In this document: positions 2,462 through 64,000 of the stretch, piece after piece | Layout: each line of letters starts with the position of its first letter | Numbering within the stretch: the first letter of the stretch is position 1 | Source: Alexandriicola marinus | GTDB lineage: Bacteria; Pseudomonadota; Alphaproteobacteria; Rhodobacterales; Rhodobacteraceae | Assembly (NCBI RefSeq): GCF_004000435.1 | Contig: NZ_RBVZ01000002.1 | Location: forward strand, 496,001-560,000 | Reading direction: 5' to 3' | DNA length: 64,000 nt | Notes under the pieces: generated by a model | What the model was told of the DNA's origin: nothing | What the model saw: only the letters and a program-made list of their open reading frames with translations | Database searches by the model: none | Program-made: the position numbers and the translations under genes

Positions 2462-3065
2462 TTTCATCACACCGACGTCTGGCCTGATCCTGTGGGCCGT
2501 TCTCGGCTATCTGATCGGGTCGGTCCCCTTCGGCATCCTTTTGTCGCGCGCCTTGGGCCTCGGCGATCTGCGAAAGATCGGGTCTGGCAATATCGGGGCG
2601 ACGAACGTGCTGAGGACCGGCTCAAAGGGCGCGGCGGCAGCAACGCTTCTCCTTGACGGTGGGAAAGGCGCATTGGCGGTGATCCTTGCGCGCAGCTTCG
2701 CGGGTGAAGACGCGACGCAATTGGCGGCCGTCGCGGCCTTCCTCGGCCATTGCTTTCCGATCTGGCTGAGGTTTCGGGGCGGCAAGGGCGTGGCGACCTT
2801 CCTCGGGATCCTTCTGGCGACCAGTTGGCCTGTCGGGGTTGCAGCCTGTGCCACATGGCTCGTCGTGGCGGCGGCAAGTCGGTATTCTTCGCTGGCCGCG
2901 CTGGTTGCTGCCGGGTCTGCGCCGTTCTGGGCGATCTTCATGGGCACCGGAACGATCTTCGTGATGTGCCTCGTCCTGACTGTGTTGATCTATGTGCGCC
3001 ACGCGGCGAACATCGGGCGCCTGAGGGCAGGAACCGAGACGAAGATCGGGGCGCGCGCATCATGA
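2454..3065 (+). CDS. plsY: Glycerol-3-phosphate acyltransferase PlsY
   Basis: 203-residue inner-membrane enzyme that transfers an acyl group from acyl phosphate to the sn-1 position of glycerol-3-phosphate, starting phospholipid synthesis. It shows the family signatures in order: [12 protein letters not shown] near the N-terminus, [26 protein letters not shown] and [13 protein letters not shown], spread over about five membrane helices. Length fits the family (about 200). ATG 2454 overlaps the dihydroorotase stop, so it is translationally coupled to the pyr genes. The stop overlaps the next start (ATGA). Confidence 0.96.
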
Positions 3066-3565
3066 GGGCCCTGATCGGAGTGCTGGTCGCGCTGCTGGTG
3101 GCAACGCCGGCGCTGGCCGAGGGGCATGGCAGCCGCATCAAGGAGTTGCTCGAACTCGCCGAAGCGGAATGCCGGACCGAGGTCATGGCCGCTGATCCGC
3201 AATCGCCCATTCCGCATCTCGAAGTAGAGCCCTCTGCGATCACATGGGTCGATCTGGATGGCGACTGGGAAAAGGACGATGCCATCGTCGATTTCAACTA
3301 CGTCTATTGTTCGCTGAACTATTCGCTCTGGCACGGAACCGGTGGCAGCCTTGTTCACCTCGTCATTGATGACGCAACCTCGCAGGCTTGGACGGGCGGG
3401 CGCTGGCAGTTGATCAGTTTCGGCGACACGCCACTATTTCTGCTGGGCCGTCATGGCACCTATTGCGACGGCTATGGCGCGCAGCCCTGCATTCAGGCGA
3501 TCGCCTTTGCCAACGGCGCCTTCTCGACCGTCACGACGGAAGGCGGGCCCTATCCCTGGCCCTGA
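3062..3565 (+). CDS. Secreted hypothetical protein
   Basis: 167-residue protein of unknown function. A signal peptide is evident ([21 protein letters not shown], cleavage likely after ALA), so it should be periplasmic. The mature part has [24 protein letters not shown], an acidic stretch reminiscent of repeat-type calcium-binding proteins, and three or four cysteines that could form disulfides ([23 protein letters not shown]). The start overlaps the plsY stop by 4 bases, making it the last gene of the pyrB-plsY run; it converges with gshA. Confidence 0.75.
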
Positions 3566-3592
3566 TCCAACGGGCGATACCCTCGGCAGGGA

Positions 3593-4963
3593 TCAGTAGC
3601 TGAACTCGGCGTAGATACGGCTCAGATCACCATCCCAATCGCCGTGATAATGCTCGAGCAATTCGTCGGCCGGGGATTGCCCGGATGCGACGGATTCCTT
3701 CAGCGCGTTCAGGAAATGGGTCTCATCGGGAACAAGCCCGCCTGCCCCCGGGCGCGCCCGCGCCCTGAGGCCCGCCTCGGCGATCTCCAGAACCTGACCC
3801 GCCAGTTCGAGCATCGAGATCCCGCCGACCTGACCGGCCAGCCCGTCCCGCGCGGCGACGAGGCGCATTTCATCGCGGGTTTCCGCGTCCCAGCCTTTGA
3901 CCAGATCCCATGCGGCATCCAGCGCAGTCTGATCATAAAGCAGCCCGACCCAAAGCGCGGGCAAGGCGCAGAGCCTGCGCCACGGGCCGCCATCGGCTCC
4001 GCGCATTTCCATGAACTGCTTGATCCGGGCCTCGGGAAAGACGGTCGTCAGGTGATCGGCCCAATCGCTCAGAAGCGGGGTCTCGCCCGGCAGGGCGGGC
4101 AATTCACCCTTGAGGAAATCGCGGAAGGACTGGCCCAGCGCGTTGATATAGACGCCGTCGCGATAGACGAAATACATCGGCACATCGAGAACCCAGTCGG
4201 CCCATGCCTCGAAGCCGAAGCCGTCTTCGAAGACGAAGGGCAGCATTCCCGTCCGATCTGCATCGAGGTGTTGCCAGATGTTGGCGCGCCAGCTTTTGAA
4301 CCCGTTGGGACGACCCTCGAAGAAGGGGGAATTGGAAAACAGCGCCGTCGCCAGCGGCTGCAGGGCCAGCGACACGCGCAGCTTCTGCACCATGTCCGCC
4401 TCGGACGAGAAATCGAGGTTCACCTGCACCGTGCAGGTGCGGCGCATCATCGCCGTGCCCATTTCGCCCACCTGCTGCATGTAGCCGTCCATCAGACGGT
4501 AGCGGCCTTTCGGCATCAGCGGCATGTCTTCATGGCGCCAGATCGGCGCCGCACCCAGCCCGATGAAACCGACACCAATCCTGTCAGAAACGGATTTCAC
4601 TTCTTCGAGATGCTGGTTCACCTCGTCACAGGTCTGGTGGATCGTCTCGAGGGGCGCGCCAGACAGTTCAAGCTGTCCGCCGGGCTCGAGGCTGATGTTC
4701 GCGCCGTCCTTCTCAAGCCCGATCAGCTTGCCGCCCTCGGTCAGCTCGGACCAGCCGAACCTGTCGCGCAACGCCGACAGAACAGCAAGGATCGAGCGTT
4801 CGCCTTCATACGGCAACGGCCGGAGCGTATCCCGACAATAGCCGAACTTCTCGTGCTCGGTTCCGATCCGCCAATCTTCGCGGGGCTTGCAGCCCGCTTC
4901 GAGGAATTCGGCCAGTTGTGCGTGCGATTCGATCGGCCCGCCACCGGACTGAGGTATCGACAT
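3593..4963 (-). CDS. gshA: Glutamate--cysteine ligase, plant/alphaproteobacterial type
   Basis: 456-residue ATP-dependent ligase joining L-glutamate gamma-carboxyl to cysteine, the first step of glutathione synthesis, cytosolic. It belongs to the GCS2/plant class rather than the E. coli GshA class: RIGTEHEKFGYC near residue 32, EKDGANISLEPGGQLELSG, MPKGRYRLMDGYM and RRTCTVQVNLDF are characteristic. Length matches that class (about 455). It is the last gene of a minus-strand run rsmE-GNAT-hypothetical-gshA; about 110 bases separate it from the preceding gene, so it may also have its own promoter. Confidence 0.95.
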   Translation of the reverse strand: MSIPQSGGGPIESHAQLAEFLEAGCKPREDWRIGTEHEKFGYCRDTLRPLPYEGERSILAVLSALRDRFGWSELTEGGKLIGLEKDGANISLEPGGQLELSGAPLETIHQTCDEVNQHLEEVKSVSDRIGVGFIGLGAAPIWRHEDMPLMPKGRYRLMDGYMQQVGEMGTAMMRRTCTVQVNLDFSSEADMVQKLRVSLALQPLATALFSNSPFFEGRPNGFKSWRANIWQHLDADRTGMLPFVFEDGFGFEAWADWVLDVPMYFVYRDGVYINALGQSFRDFLKGELPALPGETPLLSDWADHLTTVFPEARIKQFMEMRGADGGPWRRLCALPALWVGLLYDQTALDAAWDLVKGWDAETRDEMRLVAARDGLAGQVGGISMLELAGQVLEIAEAGLRARARPGAGGLVPDETHFLNALKESVASGQSPADELLEHYHGDWDGDLSRIYAEFSY

Positions 4964-5074
4964 GGGTGCCTCCGTGGATGGCGACGTGAGTGGTTTTGCC
5001 GGAACGAGAGGTGGCCGAGAGGATGACAGAAGTCAATCACCCGAGCCTGCTCAATGTTGTGCGGGGTTGCAGGG

Positions 5075-5605
5075 TCAATGTCCGCCGATGCGCGGCACGT
5101 CAAGGGGTCGTCGGCGCCAGACAAGATGCGTCGCGCCTTCATGCGTCCGGCTTGCCGCGATCAACCGTTCGGTCCGCATGCCCGGCAGAGACGAGAAGGC
5201 ATCGAACAGAACCTCCGCCCCTTCGGCATTCAGGGGGATGTCGAGGACTTCGCCCGCATCCGACCGCAAACGCCAATGGGGCGGAACCGCGTCGCCCGCG
5301 ACCTCGAGCCCGATCACATCGTCAAGCGCCATCACACCGCCGGTCAAAGGGCCGAAATAGGCGATCTGACGTTCGGCCACCTGAACCACGCCCGGCCCGC
5401 CGGCACCGGGATGAAACCGAAGCCGCTGAACGGCGGCATATCCGAAGGCCATCGAGACGAGGACAAGGATCCATCCGATCCATGTCATGATCCCGATCGA
5501 GGTCAGCCCCCACCACAGGCCAAGCGAGGCACCGCCACTGGCCGCGATCACCTCGCGCCAGCGATAGAGCGCCTGCCGCGCCTCGGGACGAAGAAATTCA
5601 GCCAT
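5075..5605 (-). CDS. Membrane protein of unknown function in the rsmE-gshA run
   Basis: 176-residue protein I do not recognise. A hydrophobic hairpin occupies residues about 22-60 (LGLWWGLTSIGIMTWIGWIL, then VSMAFGYAAVQRL), followed by a soluble domain of beta-rich character with VQVAERQIAYFGPLTGGVMAL and a basic C-terminus (VWRRRPLDVPRIGGH). Its start overlaps the stop of the upstream GNAT gene by 8 bases, so the two are probably co-translated. It may be a PH-like or membrane-anchored regulatory domain, but I cannot assign a family. Confidence 0.75.
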   Translation of the reverse strand: MAEFLRPEARQALYRWREVIAASGGASLGLWWGLTSIGIMTWIGWILVLVSMAFGYAAVQRLRFHPGAGGPGVVQVAERQIAYFGPLTGGVMALDDVIGLEVAGDAVPPHWRLRSDAGEVLDIPLNAEGAEVLFDAFSSLPGMRTERLIAASRTHEGATHLVWRRRPLDVPRIGGH

Positions 5606-6437
5606 CCGCCGTCACCCTTTCTGACAGAAGGCACAGGGTCCAGTCACCGATCTGCTCGAATCCGATGGCCCTGTAGGCGGCCACCGCAGCCGCGCTCGCG
5701 GCGAACAGAATCGCCCGGCGGGCGCCCTTGTCGCGCGCCTCGGCCAGATGGAGAGCGACCGCGCGGCGCGCATGACCCCGACCGCGAAGCGGCGGAGGCG
5801 TGAACACTCCGCCGATCTGAACCGTATCCCCGGCTGTCGCATTGAATCCGGTGGTCGATAGCGGCGTGCCGTCTTCGATCAGGATGCGGTGCGAATCCGC
5901 AACCAGATAAGCTGCGTAGTCACGACGGGCGGTCTGAAAACTTGTTTCGGGGCTGCCGCCCAGAACCTCGATCTCGTAATCGGCGCGCCAGCTGATCATC
6001 TCGTCCTTGTCGGCCGCGTCCAGTGGATGCAACGCACCCGGGCCGTCGGGGACACTCAGGTGATCCAGGTTCAGCGCGAAATGCGGCTCGTCCCGGTCGA
6101 GCGTCGTGGGCCGGCCCGCCAGACCAAGCTCCGCCAGAAGCGCCCTGACCTGATCCGTCGGACCAATGCAGCCGCTGATCCAGCGGCCCGAAAGGCAGCG
6201 GGCAGCGGCGGCCCAGTCCCCGCCCGGCAGGGCCGGCAAGATCATCCCGCCCTTGCCAAGGGTCAGCACATCGGTGACACGCCCGTCCTGTTCCGCGATC
6301 CACATCCGGGGGGCATAGTCGTGATTCCCGTCAAGGCCGAACCTGTCGAGGTTCGACAGGGGAAACATCGCCCGGTCGATCATGCCCGTCAGGCAGGCAC
6401 GGATCGCGGGGGTATCCTCCGGAACCGCACGTCTCAC
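5598..6437 (-). CDS. GNAT family N-acetyltransferase
   Basis: 279-residue acetyl-CoA-dependent acyltransferase of unknown substrate. The C-terminal third contains the acetyl-CoA loop RGRGHARRAVALHLAEA and a following AAAVAAYRAIGFEQIGDWTL strand, both typical of GNAT motif A/B. The N-terminal half (LAVRRAVPEDTPAIRACL) looks like a first, degenerate GNAT lobe. The start is placed at GTG 6437 because it overlaps the rsmE stop (GTGA); the open frame continues further upstream only inside rsmE. It sits second in the rsmE-gshA operon. Confidence 0.85.
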   Translation of the reverse strand: MRRAVPEDTPAIRACLTGMIDRAMFPLSNLDRFGLDGNHDYAPRMWIAEQDGRVTDVLTLGKGGMILPALPGGDWAAAARCLSGRWISGCIGPTDQVRALLAELGLAGRPTTLDRDEPHFALNLDHLSVPDGPGALHPLDAADKDEMISWRADYEIEVLGGSPETSFQTARRDYAAYLVADSHRILIEDGTPLSTTGFNATAGDTVQIGGVFTPPPLRGRGHARRAVALHLAEARDKGARRAILFAASAAAVAAYRAIGFEQIGDWTLCLLSERVTADG

Positions 6438-7171
6438 CGCCAGTCCCCGAGGCTCGCCTGCCAAAGTGTCAGCGCCGCCACCGCCGCCGTATCGGCGCGC
6501 AGGATCCGCGGGCCAAGCGAATACCGCAGAACGCTGCCCCGCAGGTCGGTATCGAGCCGGCGCCGCTCGGCCGGGGAAAATCCGCCTTCGGGCCCGATCA
6601 GGACGGCCCATGGGTCGCCGGGTCTAAACTGCTCAAGCCCCGGCGTCATGCCAGAACCTGCGGTCTCTTCGTCGCAATGAAGGATCATCCGCCCGCGATC
6701 CCAGTCATCGAGAACCTTGGAGAGTTTCTGAGGCTCGGCCACCTCCGGGACATAGGTGCCGCCGCATTGTTCCGCCGCCTCGATCGCATGGGCTTGTAGC
6801 CGGTCGACCCGGACCCGTTCGGAATTGGTGTAATCGGTCAGCACCGGCAGGATCCGCGCGGCGCCCAGTTCCGTCGCCTTCTCGACGATGAAATCGGTCC
6901 GGGCCTTCTTGATCGGGGCGAACAGAAGCCACAGGTCCGGCGGATCGAGTTGCGGCGCGCTTTGCGCAAGGCAGGTCAGCGCGCCGCGCTTGCGACCGGC
7001 CTCTGTCACACGGGCGGCCCATTCGCCGTCCCGGCCGTTGAACAAGCGCACCTCGGCATCGACACTCAGCCGCATGACCCCGAACAGGTAATGCGCCTGC
7101 CCGCCGTCGACGGGAACGGTTTGCCCCTGTGCCAGAGGATGATCTACATGAAGGCGAACGATCGAAGCCAT
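6434..7171 (-). CDS. rsmE: 16S rRNA (uracil(1498)-N(3))-methyltransferase
   Basis: 245-residue SPOUT-class SAM-dependent enzyme that methylates U1498 of 16S rRNA. The N-terminal PUA-like part includes the HYLFGVMRLSVDAEVRLFNG segment, and the C-terminal knot has LLFAPIKKARTDFIVEKATE, AAEQCGG and the SAM-loop LIGPEGGFSPAER. Length fits RsmE (about 245). The open frame extends far upstream, but ATG 7171 (MASIVRLHVDHP) matches the family start; ATG 7183 is an alternative. It is divergent from ubiA with 12 bases between the chosen starts. Confidence 0.93.
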   Translation of the reverse strand: MASIVRLHVDHPLAQGQTVPVDGGQAHYLFGVMRLSVDAEVRLFNGRDGEWAARVTEAGRKRGALTCLAQSAPQLDPPDLWLLFAPIKKARTDFIVEKATELGAARILPVLTDYTNSERVRVDRLQAHAIEAAEQCGGTYVPEVAEPQKLSKVLDDWDRGRMILHCDEETAGSGMTPGLEQFRPGDPWAVLIGPEGGFSPAERRRLDTDLRGSVLRYSLGPRILRADTAAVAALTLWQASLGDWR

Positions 7172-7183
7172 GAGGCAGAGCAT

Positions 7184-8146
7184 ATGACCGAGGCAGGCCA
7201 GAGACCAGAGCAAGGCGAAGTCGCAGATGCCGTTCCCGGCAATTGGGTCGACACCCGCGCGCCCGCACGTGCCCGACCCTTTCTGCGGCTCAGCCGGGCC
7301 GACCGCCCGATCGGAACATGGCTCCTGTTGCTGCCATGCTGGTGGGGTCTGGGCCTTGCGATCGTGTCGACCGGCGAGGCAAGCCTCTCCGACCTGTGGA
7401 TCGCCATAGGCTGCGCCATCGGGGCATTCCTGATGCGCGGGGCAGGATGCACATGGAACGACATCACCGACCGCGACATCGACGGCAGCGTCGCGCGCAC
7501 CCGGTCTCGCCCAATCCCGTCGGGGCAGGTCACGACGCGGCAGGCGCTGGTCTGGGTCGTCGTTCAGTCGCTGCTGGCCTTCGGGATCCTGCTGACATTC
7601 AATCCGCAGGCGATCCTGCTGGGGATCATCGCCCTTGTGCCCGTGGCCATCTACCCCTTTGCCAAGCGGTTCACGTGGTGGCCGCAGATCTTTCTGGGGA
7701 TCGCGTTCAACTGGGGCGCGCTTCTGGCCTGGACGGCGCATACCGGAAGTCTCGGTCTGCCGGCTGTCATGCTTTACCTCGCGGGGATCTGCTGGACGCT
7801 GTTCTACGACACGATCTACGCCCATCAGGATGCCGAGGATGATGCGCTGATCGGCGTGAAGTCGACAGCGCGATTGTTCGGAGACAGGACCCCACACTGG
7901 TTGCGCCGGTTTCTCGTGTCCTGCGTCATGCTGATGGGGCTGGCGGTCATCGCCGCCGCGATCGACGCCTCCGTGCTTGTTCTGGTTCTGGCACTGGGCG
8001 GGCCCTGGGCGATGGGCTGGCACATGGCCCTTCAACTGGGCCGGTTCGACCCCGCGAATGATGCAGGTCTGCTGCGGCTGTTCCGGTCGAACCGGATGGC
8101 CGGCTTCCTGCCTGTGCTGTTTTTCGCCGCCGCCGCCCTAGTGTGA
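7184..8146 (+). CDS. ubiA: 4-hydroxybenzoate octaprenyl/polyprenyltransferase
   Basis: 320-residue integral membrane prenyltransferase that attaches the polyprenyl tail to 4-hydroxybenzoate in ubiquinone synthesis. The two Mg-diphosphate motifs are clear: NDITDRDIDGSVARTRSRP and YDTIYAHQDAEDD, with the RADRPIGTWLLLLPCWWG entry before the first. About eight to nine helices follow. ATG 7184 gives the family length with a short polar N-terminal tail; ATG 7148 is in frame but would overlap rsmE. The polyprenyl donor would come from the synthase encoded at 24.5-25.5 kb. Confidence 0.94.
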   Translation: MTEAGQRPEQGEVADAVPGNWVDTRAPARARPFLRLSRADRPIGTWLLLLPCWWGLGLAIVSTGEASLSDLWIAIGCAIGAFLMRGAGCTWNDITDRDIDGSVARTRSRPIPSGQVTTRQALVWVVVQSLLAFGILLTFNPQAILLGIIALVPVAIYPFAKRFTWWPQIFLGIAFNWGALLAWTAHTGSLGLPAVMLYLAGICWTLFYDTIYAHQDAEDDALIGVKSTARLFGDRTPHWLRRFLVSCVMLMGLAVIAAAIDASVLVLVLALGGPWAMGWHMALQLGRFDPANDAGLLRLFRSNRMAGFLPVLFFAAAALV

Positions 8147-44532: not shown

Positions 44533-44598
44533 CGCCTGTGCCTCCGGAATGGCCGCCACAGATGCACCATCACGGGTTTCGACGCCACCGTCAATTAT

Positions 44599-44616
44599 CT
44601 TGACAGGTGTGTCGAT
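44599..44616. promoter_or_regulatory. Second operator copy between tetR and the MttB-family gene
   Basis: TTGACA-GGTG-TGTCGA (44600-44615) repeats the core of the perfect palindrome at 40057-40074 with one mismatch (TTGACA versus TCGACA). It is 44 bases before the methyltransferase start and 67 before the tetR start. The TTGACA half also equals a consensus -35 hexamer, so a bound repressor would block polymerase. Confidence 0.55.
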
Positions 44617-44659
44617 TTCGGCTGCTGTCTTGGGATCGGGTGTCAGAACCGGAGGCGAT

Positions 44660-46231
44660 ATGTCCCAGATCGAAGCCAAGGCCAATCCGAGGCGGCGCAG
44701 CCGTGGGCCCCGCAAGCCGCCCCGGTCCAACATTCCCGGCGCCAACCCTTGGCTCGAGGTGCCCTACATTACCCGCAAGGTGCCGACCTATGACATTCTG
44801 GGCGAAGAGAGCCTTGCGAGGATCGAAGCGACAGCCGACAGGATCCTTGCCGAGATCGGCATGGAATTCCGCGAAGATCCTGAAACGGTCGAGCTGTTCC
44901 GCCGTGCCGGAGGCGAGGTCCGCCAGATCGGCCCCGAGGCATCGAACATCCGGTTCGAGCCGGGATTGATCCGGCAGCTTTGCACGACCGCACCCGGACG
45001 GTTCCGGCAGGCTGCCCGCAATCCGGCCCGATCGGTCGAGATCGGCGGCGATGCCATGGTCTTTGCGCCTGCTTACGGATCGCCGTTCATCCTCGATAGC
45101 GAGGGCAACAGGCGGTATGCGACGCTCGATGACTTCCAGTCCCTGGTGAAGCTCGGGCAAAGCTCGCCGTGGTTGCACCATTCGGGCGGCACGATCTGCG
45201 AGCCCACCGACATCCCCGTGAACAAGCGGCACCTCGATATGGTCTATTCCCATATCCGGTTTTCCGACAAACCGTTCCTCGGCTCGATCACGGCGCCGGA
45301 ACGCGCGGCCGATTCAATCGAGATGTGCCGTATTCTCTTTGGCGCGGATTTCGTGGATCGGAACTGCGTCATCATGGGCAACTTCAACACGACCTCTCCG
45401 CTGGTCCTCGATGGCGTGACGACGCGCGGCATCCGGACCTATGCGGCGGCGGGACAGGGCTCGATCCACCTGCCGTTCCTTCTGGGTGGCGCGGTCACGC
45501 CCGTGACGATGGCCGGAAGCTGCGCCCAGAGCCTTGCGGAATCGATGGTCGGCGTCGCGTTGACACAGCTGGTCCGCCCCGGTGCGCCGGCCCTTCTGGC
45601 CGCGTTCCTGTCGTCGCTGGACCTGCGGTCGGGCTCGCCCACCTTCGGCACGCCGGAACCCGCACTCGGATCGCTGGTGATGGGTCAACTGGCACGGCGG
45701 ATGAACCTGCCTCTCAGATGTTCAGGGAATTTCAGCACCTCGAAACTGCCCGACGCGCAGGCGATGTCGCAATCCATGATGTCGATGATGGCCGCCGCGC
45801 AATGCGGGGCGAACTACATCCTGCACGCCGCCGGTTTTCTCGACGGGCTGTTATCGATGTCCTACGAGAAATTCGTCATGGATTGCGATCTGGCCGGCGC
45901 GCTGCATGTCTATCTGCGGGGGCTCGAGGTGTCGGACGAGACGCTGGCCTTCGATGCGCTGGCCGAGGGCGGGCCCGGGATGCACCTCTTCGGCACCGAA
46001 CACACGCTGCGCCACTACGAGACGGCCTATTATGACAGCGCGCTCAGCGACTATACCCCGTGGGAAACATGGGATGACAACGGCCGCAACGGGGCCATGG
46101 CCCGGGCGACCGCGCGCTGGCAATCGACGCTGGAACACTACGAACCGCCGCATCTGGACGAAGCGATCGACGAGGCTCTCCTAGCCTTTATCGCACAGAA
46201 GAAAGAGGCCATGCCCGATGCCTGGCACTAG
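44660..46231 (+). CDS. MttB superfamily methyltransferase (non-pyrrolysine)
   Basis: 523-residue TIM-barrel methyltransferase of the trimethylamine methyltransferase (MttB) superfamily. It reads through with no internal amber codon, so it is a non-Pyl member of the type that demethylates glycine betaine, proline betaine or carnitine. Landmarks: IEATADRILAEIGMEFREDP, GSITAPERAADSIEMC, GNFNTTSPLVLDG and NYILHAAGFLDGLLSMSYEK. The canonical partner corrinoid protein is not encoded in the window. A GGAGGCG site precedes ATG 44660. Divergent from tetR and sharing its operator. Confidence 0.88.
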   Translation: MSQIEAKANPRRRSRGPRKPPRSNIPGANPWLEVPYITRKVPTYDILGEESLARIEATADRILAEIGMEFREDPETVELFRRAGGEVRQIGPEASNIRFEPGLIRQLCTTAPGRFRQAARNPARSVEIGGDAMVFAPAYGSPFILDSEGNRRYATLDDFQSLVKLGQSSPWLHHSGGTICEPTDIPVNKRHLDMVYSHIRFSDKPFLGSITAPERAADSIEMCRILFGADFVDRNCVIMGNFNTTSPLVLDGVTTRGIRTYAAAGQGSIHLPFLLGGAVTPVTMAGSCAQSLAESMVGVALTQLVRPGAPALLAAFLSSLDLRSGSPTFGTPEPALGSLVMGQLARRMNLPLRCSGNFSTSKLPDAQAMSQSMMSMMAAAQCGANYILHAAGFLDGLLSMSYEKFVMDCDLAGALHVYLRGLEVSDETLAFDALAEGGPGMHLFGTEHTLRHYETAYYDSALSDYTPWETWDDNGRNGAMARATARWQSTLEHYEPPHLDEAIDEALLAFIAQKKEAMPDAWH

Positions 46232-55937: not shown

Positions 55938-56032
55938 AGGCGCCGAAATCGAACCAATTGCACAATTTGGCCCAGTTTTTCTGACATGACCGAAACAGTC
56001 AGCCCGTGCCGGGCGATGACAGCAGGCGAGCA

Positions 56033-57010
56033 ATGAACGACAAAGTGGTAAGGCGCACAGGCAGACCGAGGCTCGATTCCGGGGCCCGGGAGCGGATTCT
56101 TGCCAAGATCGCTAAGCTCGACCATGCCCCGGCCGAAGAGATCGAGGTGGCGACGGATGCGCTCCGTGATCTGCTGCGCAGCGATCCCGTGACAGAGGCC
56201 GAGCCGGAACCGGCCGCGCAAATCGACACCTCCGACAGCGATGCAGGCGCGACGGCGCCTGATCCGTCCGCACCCCCCTCCCCGTCGGTTCATGACAGCT
56301 GGACCCGTCTGCGACAGTTCTCCCTCGACGGCACACATCTGGAAGGAAAGCTGGTCATCACGGCCAACAGGTCCGACCCGGCACACGGAGCCTTTGACGT
56401 TCTGCGCACGCGTCTGGTTCAGGCCCTTGCCGACAAGGGCTGGACGCGTGTTGCCATCACCTCGCCGACGGCCGGCTGCGGCAAAAGCTTTACCGCCGTG
56501 AACCTCGCCATCACCCTGTCACGTTATGACAGCTGCCGGACCGTGCTTCTGGATTTCGACATGCGCAGACCCGGGCTTGCCCGGTATTTCGGCGTCGAGC
56601 GCGCCGGGTCGATCGGCGATTATCTGCGCGGCTTTGTCCCGCTGGAGGATCACCTTATCCGGCCGGGGCCGAACAATCTGCATGTCGGGGACAGGCTTGC
56701 CATAGGCCTGAACGACCGGCCCGAAGCCTATGCGGCCGAATTGCTTCAGCAGCCGGAAACGGCCGCCGTCATGACCCATCTCGAACGGACTCTGCACCCG
56801 GAAGTCGTGCTTCTTGATCTGCCGCCTGCCCTTGCGCAGGACGATGTCATCGCGGCACGCCCGCATTTCGACTGTGTCTTGATGGTGGTCGGTGGCGGGA
56901 TGACCACCTCCGACGAGATTCAGGAGGCAACCCGCCGGATCGGCGAAGACAAGCCGGTTCTGGGCGTGGTGCTGAACAAGGCCGATATCGAGGGCGACTA
57001 CGCCTATTAG
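56033..57010 (+). CDS. CpsD/CapB-like autokinase (Wzc-type ATPase domain)
   Basis: 325-residue cytosolic ATPase of the bacterial tyrosine kinase (BY-kinase) family. Walker A is ITSPTAGCGKSFTAVNLA, Walker A' LLDFDMRRPGLARYFG, and Walker B VVLLDLPPALAQDD. An N-terminal 120 residues (RRTGRPRLDSGARERILAKI; then acidic, Pro-rich linker) is longer than in CpsD. The C-terminus ends GDYAY, only two tyrosines, against the usual Tyr-rich cluster. ATG 56033 follows AGGCGAGC. It is expected to control chain length/export with the Wzz partner encoded convergently. Confidence 0.9.
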   Translation: MNDKVVRRTGRPRLDSGARERILAKIAKLDHAPAEEIEVATDALRDLLRSDPVTEAEPEPAAQIDTSDSDAGATAPDPSAPPSPSVHDSWTRLRQFSLDGTHLEGKLVITANRSDPAHGAFDVLRTRLVQALADKGWTRVAITSPTAGCGKSFTAVNLAITLSRYDSCRTVLLDFDMRRPGLARYFGVERAGSIGDYLRGFVPLEDHLIRPGPNNLHVGDRLAIGLNDRPEAYAAELLQQPETAAVMTHLERTLHPEVVLLDLPPALAQDDVIAARPHFDCVLMVVGGGMTTSDEIQEATRRIGEDKPVLGVVLNKADIEGDYAY

Positions 57011-58344
57011 GGTCTGGCACCACGTCGCAACAGCGGCAGGCGGAGCAGTTCCAGGAGCCGTTGGATGGGCAGCATCGACCAGAGTTCCACGCCGAAACGG
57101 CGGATCAAGACCCACACGAGCCCCAGCAACGCGATCAGGTAAGCGCCCAGTTTCAGCAGCCGGTTTCGCTTGGCTCTGCGGGTGGTCAGGTTGGGAATGA
57201 TAATCACAGGACGCACACCCAACTGACGTTCGAGTTGGGCGGCGGTCCGGATCTTCCCGCTCGACAACTCGAGCAGCATCGCGGCGGCCAGCGCGAAGAC
57301 CACCGTCGCGACACCACCGGCCAGCGCGATCTTTCGGCGGCTGGCGGAGACCGGATATTCAGGCGGGATCGCTGTTTCCAGCACCTCGAACCGCTCGGCT
57401 TGATCCTGTTCCTCGAGAAGCTGGGTCATGGCCGCTTCGGTGCGCCGCTGTGTGACGACCTCGTATTCGGTGTTCAGCTGTTCGAGCTGCCGATTGAGCG
57501 CGGAAAGGCGCCGTTCGATGATCGGTGCCGCGGCAATCGCCTCTTCGATGCGGGCGATGTTCTCGGCGATCAGGGAGCGTTGCTGCTCAAGCAGGGCGAC
57601 CTGACGCTCCAGCTCGTCTTCGCGAAGGCGATCGGACTGCGTCTGCAATTCGATCAGCTGCTGATCAAGCGCAATCTGCGTATCTGTGAGCCGGGTCAGC
57701 CGTTCCCGCTGGGAGGCGATATTGTCAGGCAGGCTGTCGAGGTTGACCCCCTTGAACTCGGCAATGATTGCCTCGACCTGCGAAATCTCTTCGCTGACGC
57801 GCGCCTCTTCCGAAACAAAGAAAGCCAGTGTGCGTGCCGCCCGGCCTTCGCTGCGCGATTGCGCCTCGGTCAGGATCGAGTTCAGGAAATCGTTCGCGAC
57901 ATCCGCCGCCAGCTGCGCATCATCCAGCCGCACCGTAATCACAAGGCCCGACGGCTGCACATCCGGGCGCCACGACTGCGTCGGATCGACAAGTTCGATG
58001 ATCGTGATGGATTCCCGAAGCAGAAACACCTTTTCCGTCAACGGCATATCACCCGGAAACAGTCCGAACCTGTCGATCACAGCAACCATGTTGTCCCGCG
58101 ACATCAGCTTTTGCTGGATCAGGTCGAGCTGTGAATTGGAATTCACCATCATCGCCTGACCGGCCAATTGTTCCGCGACCTCGGGGGCCTCGATCTGGAT
58201 GACCGCCGTCGCCTCGAACAGCTTGGGCCTGCTCAGAGCAAACCAGACCGACGAGGCCATTCCGATCGCGAGGATCAGGATGATGACCGGCAAACGCCGC
58301 CAGATGACACGCAACAGGGCGCGCGGGGAAACAAGGTGGCCCAT
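57007..58344 (-). CDS. Wzz/GumC-type polysaccharide co-polymerase
   Basis: 445-residue inner-membrane chain-length determinant. First helix VIILILAIGMASSVWFALS; then ATAVIQIEAPEVAEQ and DPTQSWRP-like periplasmic segments; a long coiled-coil (IALDQQLIELQTQSDRLRED; QQRSLIAENIARIEEAIAAA); and two C-terminal helices (IALAGGVATVVFALAAAMLL; LLKLGAYLIALLGLVWVLIR). ATG 58344 fits family openings; 10 upstream codons are open. It lacks a fused kinase, so it needs the separate CpsD-like protein. The stops overlap by 4 bases. Confidence 0.93.
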   Translation of the reverse strand: MGHLVSPRALLRVIWRRLPVIILILAIGMASSVWFALSRPKLFEATAVIQIEAPEVAEQLAGQAMMVNSNSQLDLIQQKLMSRDNMVAVIDRFGLFPGDMPLTEKVFLLRESITIIELVDPTQSWRPDVQPSGLVITVRLDDAQLAADVANDFLNSILTEAQSRSEGRAARTLAFFVSEEARVSEEISQVEAIIAEFKGVNLDSLPDNIASQRERLTRLTDTQIALDQQLIELQTQSDRLREDELERQVALLEQQRSLIAENIARIEEAIAAAPIIERRLSALNRQLEQLNTEYEVVTQRRTEAAMTQLLEEQDQAERFEVLETAIPPEYPVSASRRKIALAGGVATVVFALAAAMLLELSSGKIRTAAQLERQLGVRPVIIIPNLTTRRAKRNRLLKLGAYLIALLGLVWVLIRRFGVELWSMLPIQRLLELLRLPLLRRGARP

Positions 58345-58461
58345 GTCCACTCCTCGACCAAACCTCCGATCCACAAAATGGACCGGGCCTTGCCCCTAAC
58401 GGCAAAGACACGAATCTGCACATGTCTATGCCACACCCTTGCCCCAATTTAGCCGATTACT

Positions 58462-58544: not shown

Positions 58545-59186
58545 TCAGCGCTTTGGCAAGACCACCGCCGCGACGCATAGTCCGCCATCGATGATCAGGT
58601 GCCCGCCCACGACGGTTCCCGCCGCGACCGGCCCTGCCGAGCGGTCAAGCTCTGCGGCAAAGCGATTGCCGTCCGAATCGAGCCGGATGCGCATATCCTG
58701 AAAATCCCAGATCGCCCCCGCCAGCGGATAAAGCGCCTTGTAGGTGGCCTCCTTGGCGCAAAAGATCGCCCGCGTGCGGCCCCGATCAACCTGTTCGTCC
58801 GGGGTCAGCACCGTTTCGATCGCATCAACGGGCAACGGCGCATCGGGTTCGATGTCGACCCCCACGCCCAGCACGTCTTCGGAGGATGCGACGAGGGCGA
58901 TCGCAAATCCGGCCGCATGGCTGATGCTGCCCACTATGCCCCGTGGCCATTGCGGGGCGCGATCCGCGTCCATCGGAATCGAGACACCCGTCATGCCCAA
59001 TTGGGCAAGGGCCTGGCGCGCGGCCGCCCGGCCTGCCGCGAATTCGGCGCGACGTGCCGGAACGGCCTTCGCAATCGCGGCGGCCTCTTCCCCGGTCAGG
59101 GGGGCGCTGTCCGAAATCGAACGACAGACAAGCACGCAGCCGGGCCCGACGGCCTGTTCCAGACGAGCAACAGCCGACAGTGTCAC
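58545..59186 (-). CDS. 4'-phosphopantetheinyl transferase (Sfp/EntD type)
   Basis: 213-residue enzyme moving phosphopantetheine from CoA to the carrier-protein Ser of NRPS/PKS. Landmarks: GSISHAAGFAIALVAS, GVGVDIEPDAPLPVD (Mg-binding Asp/Glu) and AIFCAKEATYKALYPL (KEAxYK). Size and motifs fit the EntD-like group. It overlaps the NRPS stop (ATGA), which makes it a dedicated activator of that carrier protein. It lacks any link to AcpS of fatty-acid synthesis. Confidence 0.94.
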   Translation of the reverse strand: MTLSAVARLEQAVGPGCVLVCRSISDSAPLTGEEAAAIAKAVPARRAEFAAGRAAARQALAQLGMTGVSIPMDADRAPQWPRGIVGSISHAAGFAIALVASSEDVLGVGVDIEPDAPLPVDAIETVLTPDEQVDRGRTRAIFCAKEATYKALYPLAGAIWDFQDMRIRLDSDGNRFAAELDRSAGPVAAGTVVGGHLIIDGGLCVAAVVLPKR

Positions 59187-62100
59187 GCGTCCTGCATCCG
59201 TCTGGCGCGCAGGACCTTGCGCCGGGCCATGGCATCGGATCGGGCCGCGGCGCGTGCTGCTGCGCCGTCCATCGGCCGGACAGGCGTCAGAGACGGCTGC
59301 GGCGCCGGTGATTCATTATCAACCGGTTGCGTCGCAGCCTTGCGCTTGCGGCTGGCCACAGGAGCGGCGCCGCCGAGAAGGGCCTCGACATGGGAGGCCA
59401 GCGCCCCGAGTGTCGTGTGCCGGAAAATATCCGTGATCCCCAGACGCGACACACCGAGGCTGTCGCGAATTTCGCGATGGGCCTGCACCGCAAGCAGGGA
59501 ATGGCCGCCGAGGTCGAAGAAATTGTCGCGCGCGCCCGGCGTCGGAACACCCAGTATGCCCGCCCAGATCGCAGCCAGCGCATCGATCGTCGAGACGCTC
59601 GCCTCCGCATCGGGGGACAGAACGGGAGCCGTCGCAGGTCGTGCTGCCGGGGCGCGCGGGCCGGGTTGCGGCAGGGCCTTGCGGTCGACCTTCTTGTTGG
59701 GCGTCAGGGGAAAGGCATCGAGCGCGATCACCCGGGCGGGAACCATATGCGCGGGCAAATCCTTGGCCAGCGCCTGTTTCACGACCTGTTCGGTGGGACT
59801 GTCGGTCCCGGTGAGATAGGCGACAAGCTGTTCTGACCCAGCCTCTCCCAGCGCCACGACAACGGATTGCGACACACCGGGAAGCGCGTCGATCGCGGCC
59901 TCGATCTCGCCCAATTCGATCCGGTGGCCGCGCAGTTTGACCTGATGATCGGCACGACCCAGGAAATCGAGGGTGCCGTCGGCCTGCCATCGCGCCAGAT
60001 CGCCAGTACAATACATCCGCCCCGGCGCAAAAGGATTGGGGCGGAACCTGTCTTCTGTCAGATCGGGTCGCTGCCAATAGCCAAGCGCAACGCCTTCGCC
60101 ACCGATCCACAATTCGCCCACCTGACCGGTGGCGACGGGTTCGAGCCTCTCATCGAGGACATAGACCTGCGTATTGGCGATCGGCGAGCCGATCGATGCG
60201 GTTCCCTCCGCGTCGCGAACGGTCTGGGTCGTCGACCAGATCGTCGTCTCGGTCGGGCCATACATGTTCTCGATCCGGGCTTTTGTGGCGGCCGATAGAT
60301 CACGCACGAGCGCACCGGGAAGCGCCTCGCCGCCGATCATCAGGTGTCGGATGCGGCGCAGGGCTGCGCGGCTTGCATCATCGCCGACAAGCATCCGGGC
60401 CATGGACGGCGTGCATTGCAGATGGGTCACGTCGTGCCGTTCGATCTGCGCCGCGATGGAGAAATCGTCATCTGCGGGTGCGCTGTCCTCGTTGGACAGG
60501 GCGCACACCTTTGCGAGCGGCCGCAATCCATCCAGCACGGTCTGCGCCCCGATGCCATAATCGATCAGGCAGGCGACCTCCGTGACCCCGATGGCCTTGA
60601 CCTGTTCAACCCGGTCAAGCGCATCGTCGATCGTCCCGAACAGGCCGGAGTCGTTGAAATACCTCTCGAATGCATAATCGAGAATGCCTTCAAGCTCCTC
60701 TGGCTCCAGTGACCCGAGATCGAGCTGGAACGCATTGTCCACGCCCTTGGGCCGCTTGAAGGCGGGAAACGCCCAGGCGTATTGCTTGATCAGACCGGCG
60801 GCGGAGCGCAGGTAATCCTTCATCGGCTCGCGCGCGGTCTCCCGCGCCTCGTCGCGCGTGGCAGCAAGGTAGGTGTGCAGCATCAGCGTGACGGAAAAAT
60901 CCTGCGGGTCGTGACCCGCCTCGCGCAGCGCGGCGTGATAGATCGCGATCTTTTCGCCCACCTCGTCGACCGACTGACCCAGCAGATGGGTCAGGACATT
61001 CGCGCCAATGCGTCCCGCCTCGGCCCAGGTTTCCGGATTGCCCGCCGTCGTCACCCATATCGGCACCTCCTTCGAGACGGGCCTTGGCTGCGTCACAAGC
61101 GTATGGATCGACCCATCCGCCCGGGGGAAGCCCACCTCTTCGCCGCGCCAGAGGGCACGGACCTGTGCGATCGCCTCGGACATGGCCTCCTTGTTGCGAG
61201 GCGGCGCGTTCTCTGGCCGAAGGACGAAATCATCCGGCTGCCAGCCAGAGGCGATAGCAAGCCCGGCACGCCCGTTCGTCAGGTTGTCGATGACGGCCCA
61301 TTCCTCGGCGATGCGCGCCGGGTGGTGAAGGGGCGCGACGCAGCTGCCCGCCCGAACCCCGATGTTTCGCGTCACGGCGGCGACGGCGGCACCGGTGACC
61401 GACGGGTTGGGATAGGGTCCGCCGAAAGCATGGAAATGCCGTTCCGGTGTCCAGACGGCGGTGAACCCGTTTTCATCGGCGTATTTTGCCCCATCGAGCA
61501 AAAGGCGATACTTGTCACGCCCCTCGCCATCGTCATTGCCCCAATAGAACAGGCTGAAGTCCATCCCGCCGATCCGCCGCCCGCCGCCCGCGGACACCAT
61601 CGCCCGGCTCTCATCACCTGACATGACGACGGTCACGCCACGCGCCAGCGTCCAGAACAGTTCGAGCACCGAGATATCGAAGCTGAGCGATGTAACGGCA
61701 AGCCATCTGTCGCCCGCGTCATGCGGTATGCGCTCATCTATCCCGGCAAAAAAATTCGCCACGTTGCGATGGCTGATCATCACGCCCTTGGGCCGCCCGG
61801 TGGAGCCCGAGGTATAGATCATATAGGCCAAGTCCTCCGGTCGGGGGCCATCGGATACGGCCGTTTCCGGGGCATCGTTCAGACGCGGGTCGTCGATCAG
61901 AACCACCACCGCCTCATGTTCCGGAAGCACGTCTTGGGTCTGGGCCTCGGCCAGAATGGCGCGGGGCGCGCTGTCTTCGACGTAAAGGGCGATGCGGTCC
62001 CTCGGGTAGGCGGGATCAAGCGGCACATAGGCCGCGCCCGCCTTCTGGATGGCCAGCGCCCCGATCACGAGGTCCGCCGATCGGCTCAGACACAGCCCGA

Positions 62101-63817
62101 CGCGATCGCCACGCCGGACGCCTTCGGCCCTCAGAACGTGGGCAATCCGGTTGGCCCGCGCCTCGACCTCTGCATAGCTCAGCGCCCGATCTTCGAAGAT
62201 GATCGCCGTGGCCTCGGGCTGCTCCGCGGCGCGCGCGGCGATTAATTCCGGGATCGTCGCCTCACGTTCAAACTCCCGTTCGGTGCGGTTCCAGCCCTGT
62301 AGCAGCGTCTCGAGTTCCGCCGCGTCGGGAAGGGGCAAGTCAGAACAACCGGCCTCGTCATGCCCGGCAAACCAGGACAGCGCGGTGCCAAGCCGGGCTG
62401 CTACAAGGGCGACGCCGTCCTGCGACAGGCGTGCCGGGTCGGGGATCAGGCGGGGCGCACCGCCGTTCCAGTCGAACGTCAGGGCGGCACCCGCAACCGC
62501 GCCCGTGCCATTGGCAAGCGCGATGTCGGGGATGGTCGGTGCCTCGCCTGCGATACGAAGCGGCAGATCGGCCGCAAAGCCCGGTCTTGCAGAGGCCCGG
62601 TCAAGTTCATCGGCGAAACGGGCCCGCGCCTGAGCGACCGAACCGTCGGGATCGAACCGGACGGGCACCCAATCGCAGACAAAAGGTGTCGCCGAGGGCC
62701 GTGCCAAAGCAAGATCGACCGGCCCGCCTGCAAGTCTTGCAAAGATTGCACCAAGCGCCGCGAAGACCCCGATGCTATCCGGCCTGCCGGCAAGATCGAC
62801 TGTCGTCTCATGCCCGCCCGCGCCGGTCAGCCCGATCCGGGCCGGAACCAGCGCCTTCAGGCGCCTGTTCCAGAACGGCTCTGCCCCAGCGACAAGTCGC
62901 ATCTCGTCCGTCAACGCCTGCCGCGCCGCGGGATCGGGCTGGTCGAGACTGTCACCCGTCTCAGGCTTGATGGTACCGTTCAGGTATTCCAGCCCATGAA
63001 GGAAGATGGCGCCATCGGCACATGCGACAGTGATCCCGTCGTCCCCGGCCTGAAGAACAGTGCCCGGCGCGCCCGCTCCCGCCGCGATCTCGGCCCCACG
63101 GGCGCAGATGATCTGCCCCTTGTGCAAGACCTTCGGCAAGGTCAGCGGATTGTCATAGGCCCCATGATCAAGGGCGCGCAAAAAGGCCGCGACCTTGGCG
63201 GCGCTTAGGTTGAAATCAATCAGTGCGGCAGCCTCTGGCCGGTCAGCGCGGCCGAAATAGCTTCGCCGCGACAGATCCTGTTCTACGACGTTCGGCGCAC
63301 CCGAGGTCAGTTGCGCGATCACGGTGGCAAAGCTTTCGATGCCCGCCGCATAGCATTTCGCATTCAGCGAAAAGGCCGTCTCGTTTTCTGCGATCTCGAC
63401 CGCTTGCGACGCAAGGATGCGGCCTTCGTCGACGCCACCCTCGATCAGATGCCACGTCACGCCATGGCGCCCCTCCCCGTTCAGGAGGGCCCAGACCGGC
63501 GCATTCAGCCCGGCATAGGCAGGCAACGGGCCATCATGGAAATTGATTGCGCCAAGGCGAGCCGTTGCCAGAACCTCATCGGGAATGATCGACAGGTTGG
63601 CCGCCGACACGATCCAGTCGAAACCAACACCGGCGATACGGTCAGCCAGACCCTTGCCCGGGGCGATGACATCAAGGCCCGAAGTCGCCGCCCAGCCTTT
63701 TACGTCGGGGTCGTCCGAGACGACGCCGGAGATCCGGTGGCCGGCCTCGAGCAGCATCCGCCCGCATTGCACCGTGAGCGATTCATGCCCGATCAGCAGA
63801 ACGGAAAAGGTGGCCAT
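59183..63817 (-). CDS. Single-module NRPS: formyltransferase, condensation-like, A domain with inserted LLM monooxygenase, PCP
   Basis: 1544 residues (ATG 63817 with RBS AAAGGAG; TTG 63820 alternative). Order: residues 1-300 formyltransferase, catalytic N92, H94, D130 (INFHDGPLPAYAG; GVDEGRIL); about 305-500 degenerate condensation-like without HHxxxDG; 515-740 first half of adenylation domain (YTSGSTGRPKG); about 747-1105 MupA/Atu3671-type FMN luciferase-like monooxygenase inserted between A4 and A5 (MDFSLFYWGNDD; TPERHFHAFGG); 1110-1385 second half (MYGPTETT, YCTGDLARW, LRGHRIELGEIE); 1405-1480 carrier with S1440 (DNFFDLGGHSLLA); basic tail. The ten-residue code reads D-I-L-Q-M-G-M-I-W-K, near the glycine code. 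No thioesterase. Confidence 0.93.
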   Translation of the reverse strand: MATFSVLLIGHESLTVQCGRMLLEAGHRISGVVSDDPDVKGWAATSGLDVIAPGKGLADRIAGVGFDWIVSAANLSIIPDEVLATARLGAINFHDGPLPAYAGLNAPVWALLNGEGRHGVTWHLIEGGVDEGRILASQAVEIAENETAFSLNAKCYAAGIESFATVIAQLTSGAPNVVEQDLSRRSYFGRADRPEAAALIDFNLSAAKVAAFLRALDHGAYDNPLTLPKVLHKGQIICARGAEIAAGAGAPGTVLQAGDDGITVACADGAIFLHGLEYLNGTIKPETGDSLDQPDPAARQALTDEMRLVAGAEPFWNRRLKALVPARIGLTGAGGHETTVDLAGRPDSIGVFAALGAIFARLAGGPVDLALARPSATPFVCDWVPVRFDPDGSVAQARARFADELDRASARPGFAADLPLRIAGEAPTIPDIALANGTGAVAGAALTFDWNGGAPRLIPDPARLSQDGVALVAARLGTALSWFAGHDEAGCSDLPLPDAAELETLLQGWNRTEREFEREATIPELIAARAAEQPEATAIIFEDRALSYAEVEARANRIAHVLRAEGVRRGDRVGLCLSRSADLVIGALAIQKAGAAYVPLDPAYPRDRIALYVEDSAPRAILAEAQTQDVLPEHEAVVVLIDDPRLNDAPETAVSDGPRPEDLAYMIYTSGSTGRPKGVMISHRNVANFFAGIDERIPHDAGDRWLAVTSLSFDISVLELFWTLARGVTVVMSGDESRAMVSAGGGRRIGGMDFSLFYWGNDDGEGRDKYRLLLDGAKYADENGFTAVWTPERHFHAFGGPYPNPSVTGAAVAAVTRNIGVRAGSCVAPLHHPARIAEEWAVIDNLTNGRAGLAIASGWQPDDFVLRPENAPPRNKEAMSEAIAQVRALWRGEEVGFPRADGSIHTLVTQPRPVSKEVPIWVTTAGNPETWAEAGRIGANVLTHLLGQSVDEVGEKIAIYHAALREAGHDPQDFSVTLMLHTYLAATRDEARETAREPMKDYLRSAAGLIKQYAWAFPAFKRPKGVDNAFQLDLGSLEPEELEGILDYAFERYFNDSGLFGTIDDALDRVEQVKAIGVTEVACLIDYGIGAQTVLDGLRPLAKVCALSNEDSAPADDDFSIAAQIERHDVTHLQCTPSMARMLVGDDASRAALRRIRHLMIGGEALPGALVRDLSAATKARIENMYGPTETTIWSTTQTVRDAEGTASIGSPIANTQVYVLDERLEPVATGQVGELWIGGEGVALGYWQRPDLTEDRFRPNPFAPGRMYCTGDLARWQADGTLDFLGRADHQVKLRGHRIELGEIEAAIDALPGVSQSVVVALGEAGSEQLVAYLTGTDSPTEQVVKQALAKDLPAHMVPARVIALDAFPLTPNKKVDRKALPQPGPRAPAARPATAPVLSPDAEASVSTIDALAAIWAGILGVPTPGARDNFFDLGGHSLLAVQAHREIRDSLGVSRLGITDIFRHTTLGALASHVEALLGGAAPVASRKRKAATQPVDNESPAPQPSLTPVRPMDGAAARAAARSDAMARRKVLRARRMQDA

Positions 63818-64000
63818 CAACTGGCTCCTTTCAGGTGTGGTGAGGGCCGGTGCTCAGAACGCCGGCCCAGGAAGGCGGACATATCGTGCCGGATAAGCGT
63901 CAACAGGAAACCGGGCGGATCGACGGGCTTCTGCCCCGAAAGAAGAGCCCTCAACCGGTGAACGAGCCCACCCGCCACATGGGCAAGCGTCGCGATCGCC
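63817..64000 (-). CDS. C-terminal fragment of a gene upstream of the NRPS (cut by window edge)
   Basis: About 60 C-terminal residues of a minus-strand gene entering from the right edge, ending IRHDMSAFLGRRSEHRPSPH near its stop at 63817-63819. The stop overlaps the NRPS start codon (TGATG), so the two are translationally coupled and belong to one operon. A hydrophobic segment (AIATLAHVAGGLVHRLRALL) suggests a membrane or amphipathic region. I cannot identify the family from this fragment. Confidence 0.6.
   Translation of the reverse strand, partial: AIATLAHVAGGLVHRLRALLSGQKPVDPPGFLLTLIRHDMSAFLGRRSEHRPSPHLKGAS

Follow-up and report, generated by a model that had tools for sequence, protein, structure and literature searches.

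The 64,000-nucleotide stretch analysed here (the window; Alexandriicola marinus contig NZ_RBVZ01000002.1, positions 496,001 to 560,000) carries a nonribosomal peptide synthetase (NRPS) gene whose product is probably the loading module of a short NRPS–polyketide synthase (PKS) line, one that would hand an N-formyl-(alpha-oxidised)glycyl group from its carrier to the PKS; the chemistry, the hand-off, the order of the steps and the fate of the product are what we infer from the domains and their setting. The gene is a single intact open reading frame on the minus strand (63817..59183, ATG start, with a TTG one codon before it as a possible alternative start) encoding 1544 residues. As predicted from its sequence, the layout of the protein is a formyltransferase (F) domain, half a condensation (C) domain, an adenylation (A) domain split after motif A4 by a monooxygenase of family TIGR04020, and a peptidyl carrier (PCP) domain. 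A first-pass annotation had placed all of these domains in one 1544-residue protein and had likened their order to that of LgrA; the reading frame and the Pfam and NCBIfam searches agreed with the former, and sequence and structural model with the latter. Conservation was read from an alignment of 134 proteins, namely 133 relatives, two of them incomplete (L140 and L147), and the window protein. To assemble it, 160 of 161 loci were kept (L067 fell below the score rule, though its 1624-residue frame is open), and removal of identical cores left 135, from which the window itself (L005) and a locus with no F domain (L164) were taken out and to which the window protein was added.

The AMP-binding profiles of Pfam and NCBIfam matched the protein as two pieces, the best at residues 528-737, with AMP-binding_C at 1304-1376. 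The first part of the A domain, up to A4, covers residues 504-737 (61607..62308, minus strand like every part of this gene), and the second, from A5 to A10, residues 1111-1390 (59648..60487); motifs A3, A4, A5, A7, A8 and A10 are retained. The insert starts about 35 residues past the A4 motif FDISVLE and stops before the A5 motif YGPTE, and its boundaries are alike in six relatives, so that the interruption lies between A4 and A5 as first annotated. A pocket code of the glycine type, DILQxGMI/VWK, was present in 134 of 134 aligned proteins under a mapping of code positions onto GrsA that we take to be correct. The form DILQMGMIWK occurs in 81 of them, including the window protein, and DILQLGMIWK in 30, while the other 23 differ at one or two positions. 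The window's code is nearly identical to DILQLGMIWK, which PMC12283262 gives for four glycine domains carrying a monooxygenase. By this code, the activated amino acid is most likely glycine. Both features of a glycine A domain with a monooxygenase of the myxothiazol type, the A4–A5 insertion site and the glycine signature, were thus found together, and six relatives with no F domain in their own protein share the insertion site and have similar codes.

The insert (residues 754-1104; 60506..61558) matched TIGR04020, the MupA/Atu3671 family of luciferase-like monooxygenases (LLM), with 477 bits against a cut-off of 244, over positions 1-340 of a 341-position profile; a second scan gave 481 bits. 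Pfam found Bac_luciferase at 762-1079 (E 5e-50). The profile search therefore upheld the original assignment of this segment to the flavin mononucleotide (FMN)-dependent, MupA/Atu3671-type enzymes. Among solved structures the insert matched the PuwE oxygenase (6ket), which has the LLM fold, with 43% identity. It is also more conserved than any other domain in the protein, with a mean majority residue of 0.82 compared with 0.65-0.73 for the N-terminal part of F, the A parts and the PCP. The predicted model of the A-LLM-A region reached a predicted template modelling score of only 0.60, and because of this value the placement of the LLM relative to the A domain was not used. Public annotation labels such proteins by the oxygenase domain alone. 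At one locus with a different architecture (L164 17855-18376, Streptomyces sp. NBC_01006), a flavin reductase gene and the end of a gene for a C-A(LLM)-PCP-thioesterase (TE) protein overlap, and this reductase is a likely source of FMNH2 there.

The front end of the protein is a domain of the ArnA/methionyl-tRNA formyltransferase (FMT) fold (residues 1-284; 62966..63817). Pfam matched Formyl_trans_N at 58-165 (whole-protein E 7e-19) and Formyl_trans_C at 197-276 (23.5 bits, cut-off 21.1). The Asn-His-Asp triad that had been recognized at the outset is indeed intact (N92, H94 and D130) and is kept in 132 of the 134 aligned proteins, one exception having Phe for His and the other being incomplete there. 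The predicted structure of residues 1-512 had a mean predicted local distance difference test value of 93.8, and its first ~290 residues resembled FMT, ArnA and formyl-tetrahydrofolate dehydrogenase (Foldseek E down to 5e-24). The first 19 VIA-align matches (Z 25.2-26.8, root-mean-square deviation 2.8-3.9 across 269-289 residues) included the FMT-type C-terminal subdomain; matches of this model were taken up by the F domain and not by the half condensation domain. An N-terminal F domain with its triad, an A domain and a PCP make up the layout of formylating loading modules of the LgrA/CongA type, to which an extra C-lobe between F and A is added here. By analogy with these modules, the F domain would formylate an aminoacyl-S-PCP.

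The segment between F and A (residues 285-512; 62282..62965) had been described as condensation-like and lacking HHxxxDG. Both statements stood, none of the 134 aligned proteins having the motif in its first 600 residues, but the segment proved to be the C-terminal lobe alone, with the formyltransferase in the place of the N-terminal lobe. The Pfam Condensation profile matched one of 40 family members (E 0.045), too weakly to decide, and a profile–profile comparison settled the identity. When a profile of 40 members was aligned with hhalign to five condensation domains that each precede an A(LLM) module (three from Streptomyces, one from Nostoc and one from Burkholderia; Pfam Condensation was found in all three that were scanned), only the C-terminal lobe aligned (97%, E 9.8e-11). 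In the first comparison domain, whose HHxxxDG lies at 133-138, the aligned stretch is residues 189-451, and in the Streptomyces protein that contains it the profile of the larger alignment likewise falls after the motif (at 178), on residues 233-372 and 454-496. The best Protein Data Bank (PDB) match in a profile search, the end of the C domain of McyB with its linker (E 3e-8), helped the assignment. A match of the half domain to CdiB (E 0.064) was taken as chance. A functional NRPS condensation domain, with two lobes and HHxxxDG, was therefore not found in this protein family, which has the C-lobe alone and the motif in 0 of 134. Nor does the protein have the form of a terminal module of the MtaG/MelG type, which we take to consist of a working C domain before the A(Gly)-monooxygenase unit and a TE after it; here a C-lobe alone precedes the A domain and no Pfam domain follows the PCP. 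We infer that the formyltransferase replaced the catalytic N-lobe and that the C-lobe may have been retained to serve the A domain as a platform.

The carrier occupies residues 1412-1477 (PP-binding, Pfam; 59387..59584), and the GGHS serine noted earlier, Ser 1440, is borne out by a motif present in 133 of 134 proteins, the remaining one being incomplete. Pfam found no C domain or TE after the PCP in the 1544-residue protein. The chain ends in a basic tail (residues 1514-1544; 59186..59278) with the motif R..M..RR, a putative docking element. This motif, picked after viewing the alignment, occurs in 112 of 134 tails, compared with a mean of 5.5 in shuffled tails. Downstream, a 4'-phosphopantetheinyl transferase (PPTase) gene (58545..59186, minus strand) shares 4 bases (GTGA) with the NRPS gene.

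The first-pass annotation had considered the release step to be missing and had expected an outside acyl acceptor. This idea was rejected once the sequence past the window edge was read, since the gene of a TE-bearing PKS belongs to the same series of overlapping genes. Upstream of the NRPS gene, a family 2 glycosyltransferase (GT2) gene on the minus strand starts outside the window (63817..64000, on to 64812) and shares 1 base with the NRPS gene (TGATG); it is overlapped by 4 bases (ATGA) by the PKS gene (64809-71213, counted onward outside the window, same strand), two genes upstream of the NRPS. The PKS has 2134 residues with ketosynthase (KS), acyltransferase (AT), ketoreductase (KR), dehydratase (DH), acyl carrier (ACP) and TE domains, and with it, in the same putative operon, the system is predicted to be a hybrid NRPS-PKS line. 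The PKS adjoins the NRPS in 40/40 and 80/80 loci of two sets, and the order PKS, GT2, NRPS is found in 40/40 and 78/80. The 40 loci were hand-picked, mostly one per genus, from 125 matching genomes, and four are common to both sets (exact 200-base test); in L081 and L098 the order was counted as present after reading the rows, a second weak NRPS match having failed the scripted test. A PKS frame was found in 124 loci, of which L098, L117, L119 and L165 were set aside as incomplete or fused, and 116 distinct proteins were aligned. Thirteen active-site residues are invariant in 116 of 116; by our own assignment of roles these are presumably the Cys and two His of KS, Ser and His of AT, Tyr and Asn of KR, His and Asp of DH, Ser of ACP, and Ser, Asp and His of TE.

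The NRPS and PKS pair was also found in rhizobia and in Methylobacterium. The two genes adjoin in divergent orientation in Aminobacter, Shinella and R. grahamii, and the PKS comes after the NRPS in Methylobacterium and Aliiroseovarius. On a plasmid of Deinococcus actinosclerus (L168), a separate formyltransferase gene (1893-2819) lies beside A(LLM)-PCP (2915-7228) and PKS genes. This formyltransferase has its own frame of 309 residues directly before the A(LLM)-PCP gene, its NxH is intact (NLHPG), and a polysaccharide gene is nearby; the N-terminal ~360 residues of the A(LLM) protein fit neither the F profile nor, convincingly, that of the C-lobe. Four F-type proteins grouped with the Deinococcus one in a tree (support 0.78), which was not taken as proof of a single origin. 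At another locus (L191) a C domain stands instead of F, with the same kind of PKS adjoining. Because the Deinococcus F gene is separate and L191 has a C domain for F, the recurrent pair is A(Gly)-LLM-PCP with a KS-AT-KR-DH-ACP PKS, and formylation would be the usual start in this branch. In two loci (L165 18444-27728, Aliiroseovarius sp. M344, and L192 3-8747) the partner PKS is fused to an extra C-A-PCP module, with which the line may incorporate an amino acid.

In the pathway that we favor, the adjoining PPTase would arm the PCP, and the split A domain would activate glycine and load it. The F domain, in the place of the catalytic C lobe, would N-formylate glycyl-S-PCP from formyl-tetrahydrofolate, and the inserted monooxygenase would hydroxylate the alpha carbon using FMNH2 and O2. 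The resulting N-formyl-alpha-hydroxyglycyl-S-PCP would pass to the PKS ketosynthase, perhaps through the basic C-terminal tail; the PKS would extend it with a malonate-type unit, KR and DH would process it, and the PKS thioesterase would release it. The product might then be glycosylated or attached to a polysaccharide, as suggested by the glycosyltransferase between both genes and the surrounding exopolysaccharide genes. That one amino acid is loaded, formylated and oxidised was already proposed in the first-pass annotation; the domains and the glycine code, in sequence and model, fit this proposal, and the chemistry itself is an expectation. Here and below, the literature is cited from excerpts of the papers. 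Formylation on the carrier was demonstrated in vitro for LgrA (PMC4504003) and was proposed for CongA and PtxE (PMC4504003, PMC5764310).

The gene is no chance occurrence; it is widespread in the order, where 125 of 292 genomes (the window's own included) have one match each at E 1e-100 or better. The matches other than the own genome have 51-62% identity, mostly near full length, and some end at contig ends (e.g., G203, residues 374-1489, and G231, 361-1543). In a sample of the class, 7 of 385 genomes match, and five of these belong to the family of the window. On genome contigs, at least 584 of the 592 pattern matches code for relatives, and the best 80 of these, a selection that leans toward close ones, come from Rhodobacteraceae-type genera and three Hydrogenophaga records. 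Among plasmid records, 15 of 29 match across at least 80% of the protein, and others in the A(LLM) part only. In a sample of the phylum, TIGR04020 scored above its cut-off in 19 of 398 genomes, ten from the window's family; the remaining nine comprise four F-type proteins with a PKS, two C-A(LLM)-PCP proteins, and three with the LLM elsewhere or alone.

The neighborhood has a sugar-polymer character. In the window, a Wzz-type polysaccharide chain-length protein gene (57007..58374, minus strand) and an exopolysaccharide-type ATPase/kinase gene (56006..57010, plus strand, NCBIfam matches below their cut-offs) are neighbors. At least one of the sugar-polymer-type genes known from the window's locus was present in the fetched flanks of 36/40 and 75/80 loci, and Wzz, the kinase, Wzx or WecG in 30/40 and 70/80; both counts stand by themselves, with no control rate for arbitrary genes. 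These neighboring genes suggest a possible link to a polymer. In Ruegeria conchae (L159 1-798), the PKS-GT2-NRPS-PPTase block has an exosortase XrtD gene and rhamnose genes a short way upstream. A 931-residue protein (L004 11766-14561) resembles RTX-type proteins weakly, with a score under the Pfam cut-off, and its relatives are found near the NRPS in several loci. Elsewhere in the window (44549-46231), one open frame encodes a 560-residue relative of MttB, the trimethylamine methyltransferase (224.5 bits, cut-off 525).

Several observations weigh against the formyl-hydroxyglycine loading module or parts of it. By profile, LgrA (E 1e-12) is a poorer match to the F domain than FMT and ArnA are (about 1e-29), and a divergent full-length relative (L078, G629) has NFF, with Phe replacing the triad His, so that its F domain may be inactive. 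In-frame stops occur in four of the 125 genome matches (G036, G068, G122 and G194). Two Paracoccus plasmid records (H16 and H17) match only from about residue 520-540 onward and a third (H29) in pieces; these three also carry a PKS whose match extends across 98-99% of the window's PKS, and their front end may have been lost or broken. H16 lies on a 225-kb plasmid of P. marcusii whose crab host is also that of PMC8273931. The Pfam scan of 17 locus proteins showed no flavin reductase that would supply FMNH2, and two of the 80 loci (L113 and L142), like the rhizobial ones, have no GT2 gene between PKS and NRPS. The idea that the basic tail may be a docking piece toward the PKS is a guess from its conservation. 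PMC12283262, in which four glycine domains with a monooxygenase (MOX) have the code DILQLGMIWK, locates the inserted MOX between A8 and A9, and those domains therefore need not be of the A4–A5 type. Retention of the hydroxyl is uncertain, since N-acyl-alpha-hydroxyglycine is rare in acyclic form, and the cyclic form is reported to withstand cleavage better (PMC10204066).

This last point bears on a different outcome, in which the formyl group would be disposable: N-formylglycyl-S-PCP would be hydroxylated, the carbinolamide would split into formamide and glyoxylyl-S-PCP, and the PKS would start from the two-carbon glyoxylyl unit. The myxothiazol/melithiazol monooxygenase, inserted at the same place, hydroxylates the glycyl alpha carbon, with cleavage and a glyoxyl thioester as the consequence (PMC10204066), and MOX is portrayed as glycine-backbone cleaving in PMC12283262. 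In those pathways, however, the product is the freed amide, while a TE hydrolyses the glyoxyl thioester (PMC10204066), a near-invariant formyltransferase would be costly for a discarded group, and solanimycin B retains its hydroxyglycine, though with the insert at a8-a9 (PMC10204066). We regard this outcome as unlikely, though worth keeping in mind. Considerably less probable is that the formyltransferase serves an amino sugar of the exopolysaccharide and is fused to the NRPS for co-regulation only. ArnA and other sugar formyltransferases are among the closest solved structures and sugar genes are numerous at the locus, but the domain stands where the C N-lobe was lost, next to a carrier module, the separate Deinococcus gene directly precedes A(LLM)-PCP, and the top profile match is FMT, whose formylation target is an aminoacyl group.

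A transferase encoded at the locus could also move the oxidised formyl-glycine straight from the carrier to a sugar, with the PKS making something else, such as a lipid anchor. The glycosyltransferase gene between PKS and NRPS at nearly all loci would suit such a transfer, as would the lack of a C domain or TE in cis after the PCP; yet the PKS is the more constant partner, kept where no GT2 is adjacent (L113, L142, rhizobia, Methylobacterium and Aliiroseovarius), and the tail after the PCP is conserved, and we hold this route to be slightly more improbable still. Inserted domains can lose activity, and the oxygenase might be a structural relic in a module that yields formyl-glycyl-S-PCP only, but its standing as the most conserved domain makes this a very remote prospect.

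The module that we propose combines features of known systems. LgrA (linear gramicidin; F-A-PCP) resembles it as a formylating initiation module and was its best whole-protein PDB match by sequence, but its first module is not known to have a C-lobe or an oxygenase and takes a different amino acid. CongA, OzmO and PtxE (conglobatin, oxazolomycin and phthoxazolin) likewise consist of F, a glycine A domain and a PCP from which a PKS takes over (PMC4504003, PMC5764310); the excerpts name these three domains alone, whereas the present protein has a half C domain separating F from A and a monooxygenase within A. No ATP-dependent cyclodehydratase of the CongE/OzmP type, as expected of the oxazole-forming sub-type (CongA/OzmO), was found among the 17 proteins of this locus scanned with Pfam. 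The myxothiazol and melithiazol assembly lines share a glycine domain with a flavin monooxygenase at a4-a5, a likeness drawn from the published descriptions, but there the preceding peptide is freed as an amide and a thioesterase follows (PMC10204066), while here F replaces the C N-lobe and the module looks first in line. SolF of the solanimycin pathway also has a glycine module with a flavin monooxygenase and alpha-hydroxyglycine is kept in solanimycin B, but its insert is at a8-a9 and within an elongating line (PMC10204066). The PuwE oxygenase lies instead between PKS and NRPS modules, where it was proposed to aid in forming a 2-hydroxy acyl chain (PMC4219810), and an LLM was proposed to alpha-hydroxylate a polyketide in the palmerolide pathway (PMC8739492). 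F-A(Gly)-PCP loading modules and A(Gly) domains with an A4–A5 monooxygenase are thus already known. In open-licence papers we found no description of both in one module with a half C domain, of a PKS partner in sugar-polymer loci, or of the product of this locus. NRPS/type 1 PKS clusters with no assigned product were reported from this bacterial group (PMC9728324, PMC8273931), their identity with the present locus not being shown.

The protein family provides a clear case of domain replacement, in which a formyltransferase stands for the catalytic lobe of a condensation domain and the other lobe is retained. For a locus present in 125 of 292 genomes of the order, a likely starter (glycine), two modifications, a partner synthase and a sugar-polymer setting can now be named; with starter, modifications and partner named, the product becomes predictable by mass and searchable. 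Tentatively, and with more doubt than confidence, we suggest that this conserved two-protein line of Rhodobacteraceae makes a short polyketide, started from N-formyl-alpha-hydroxyglycine or glyoxylyl, that becomes a covalent part of an exopolysaccharide. If true, this would be a PKS-NRPS pathway that decorates a surface polymer and does not yield a free antibiotic.

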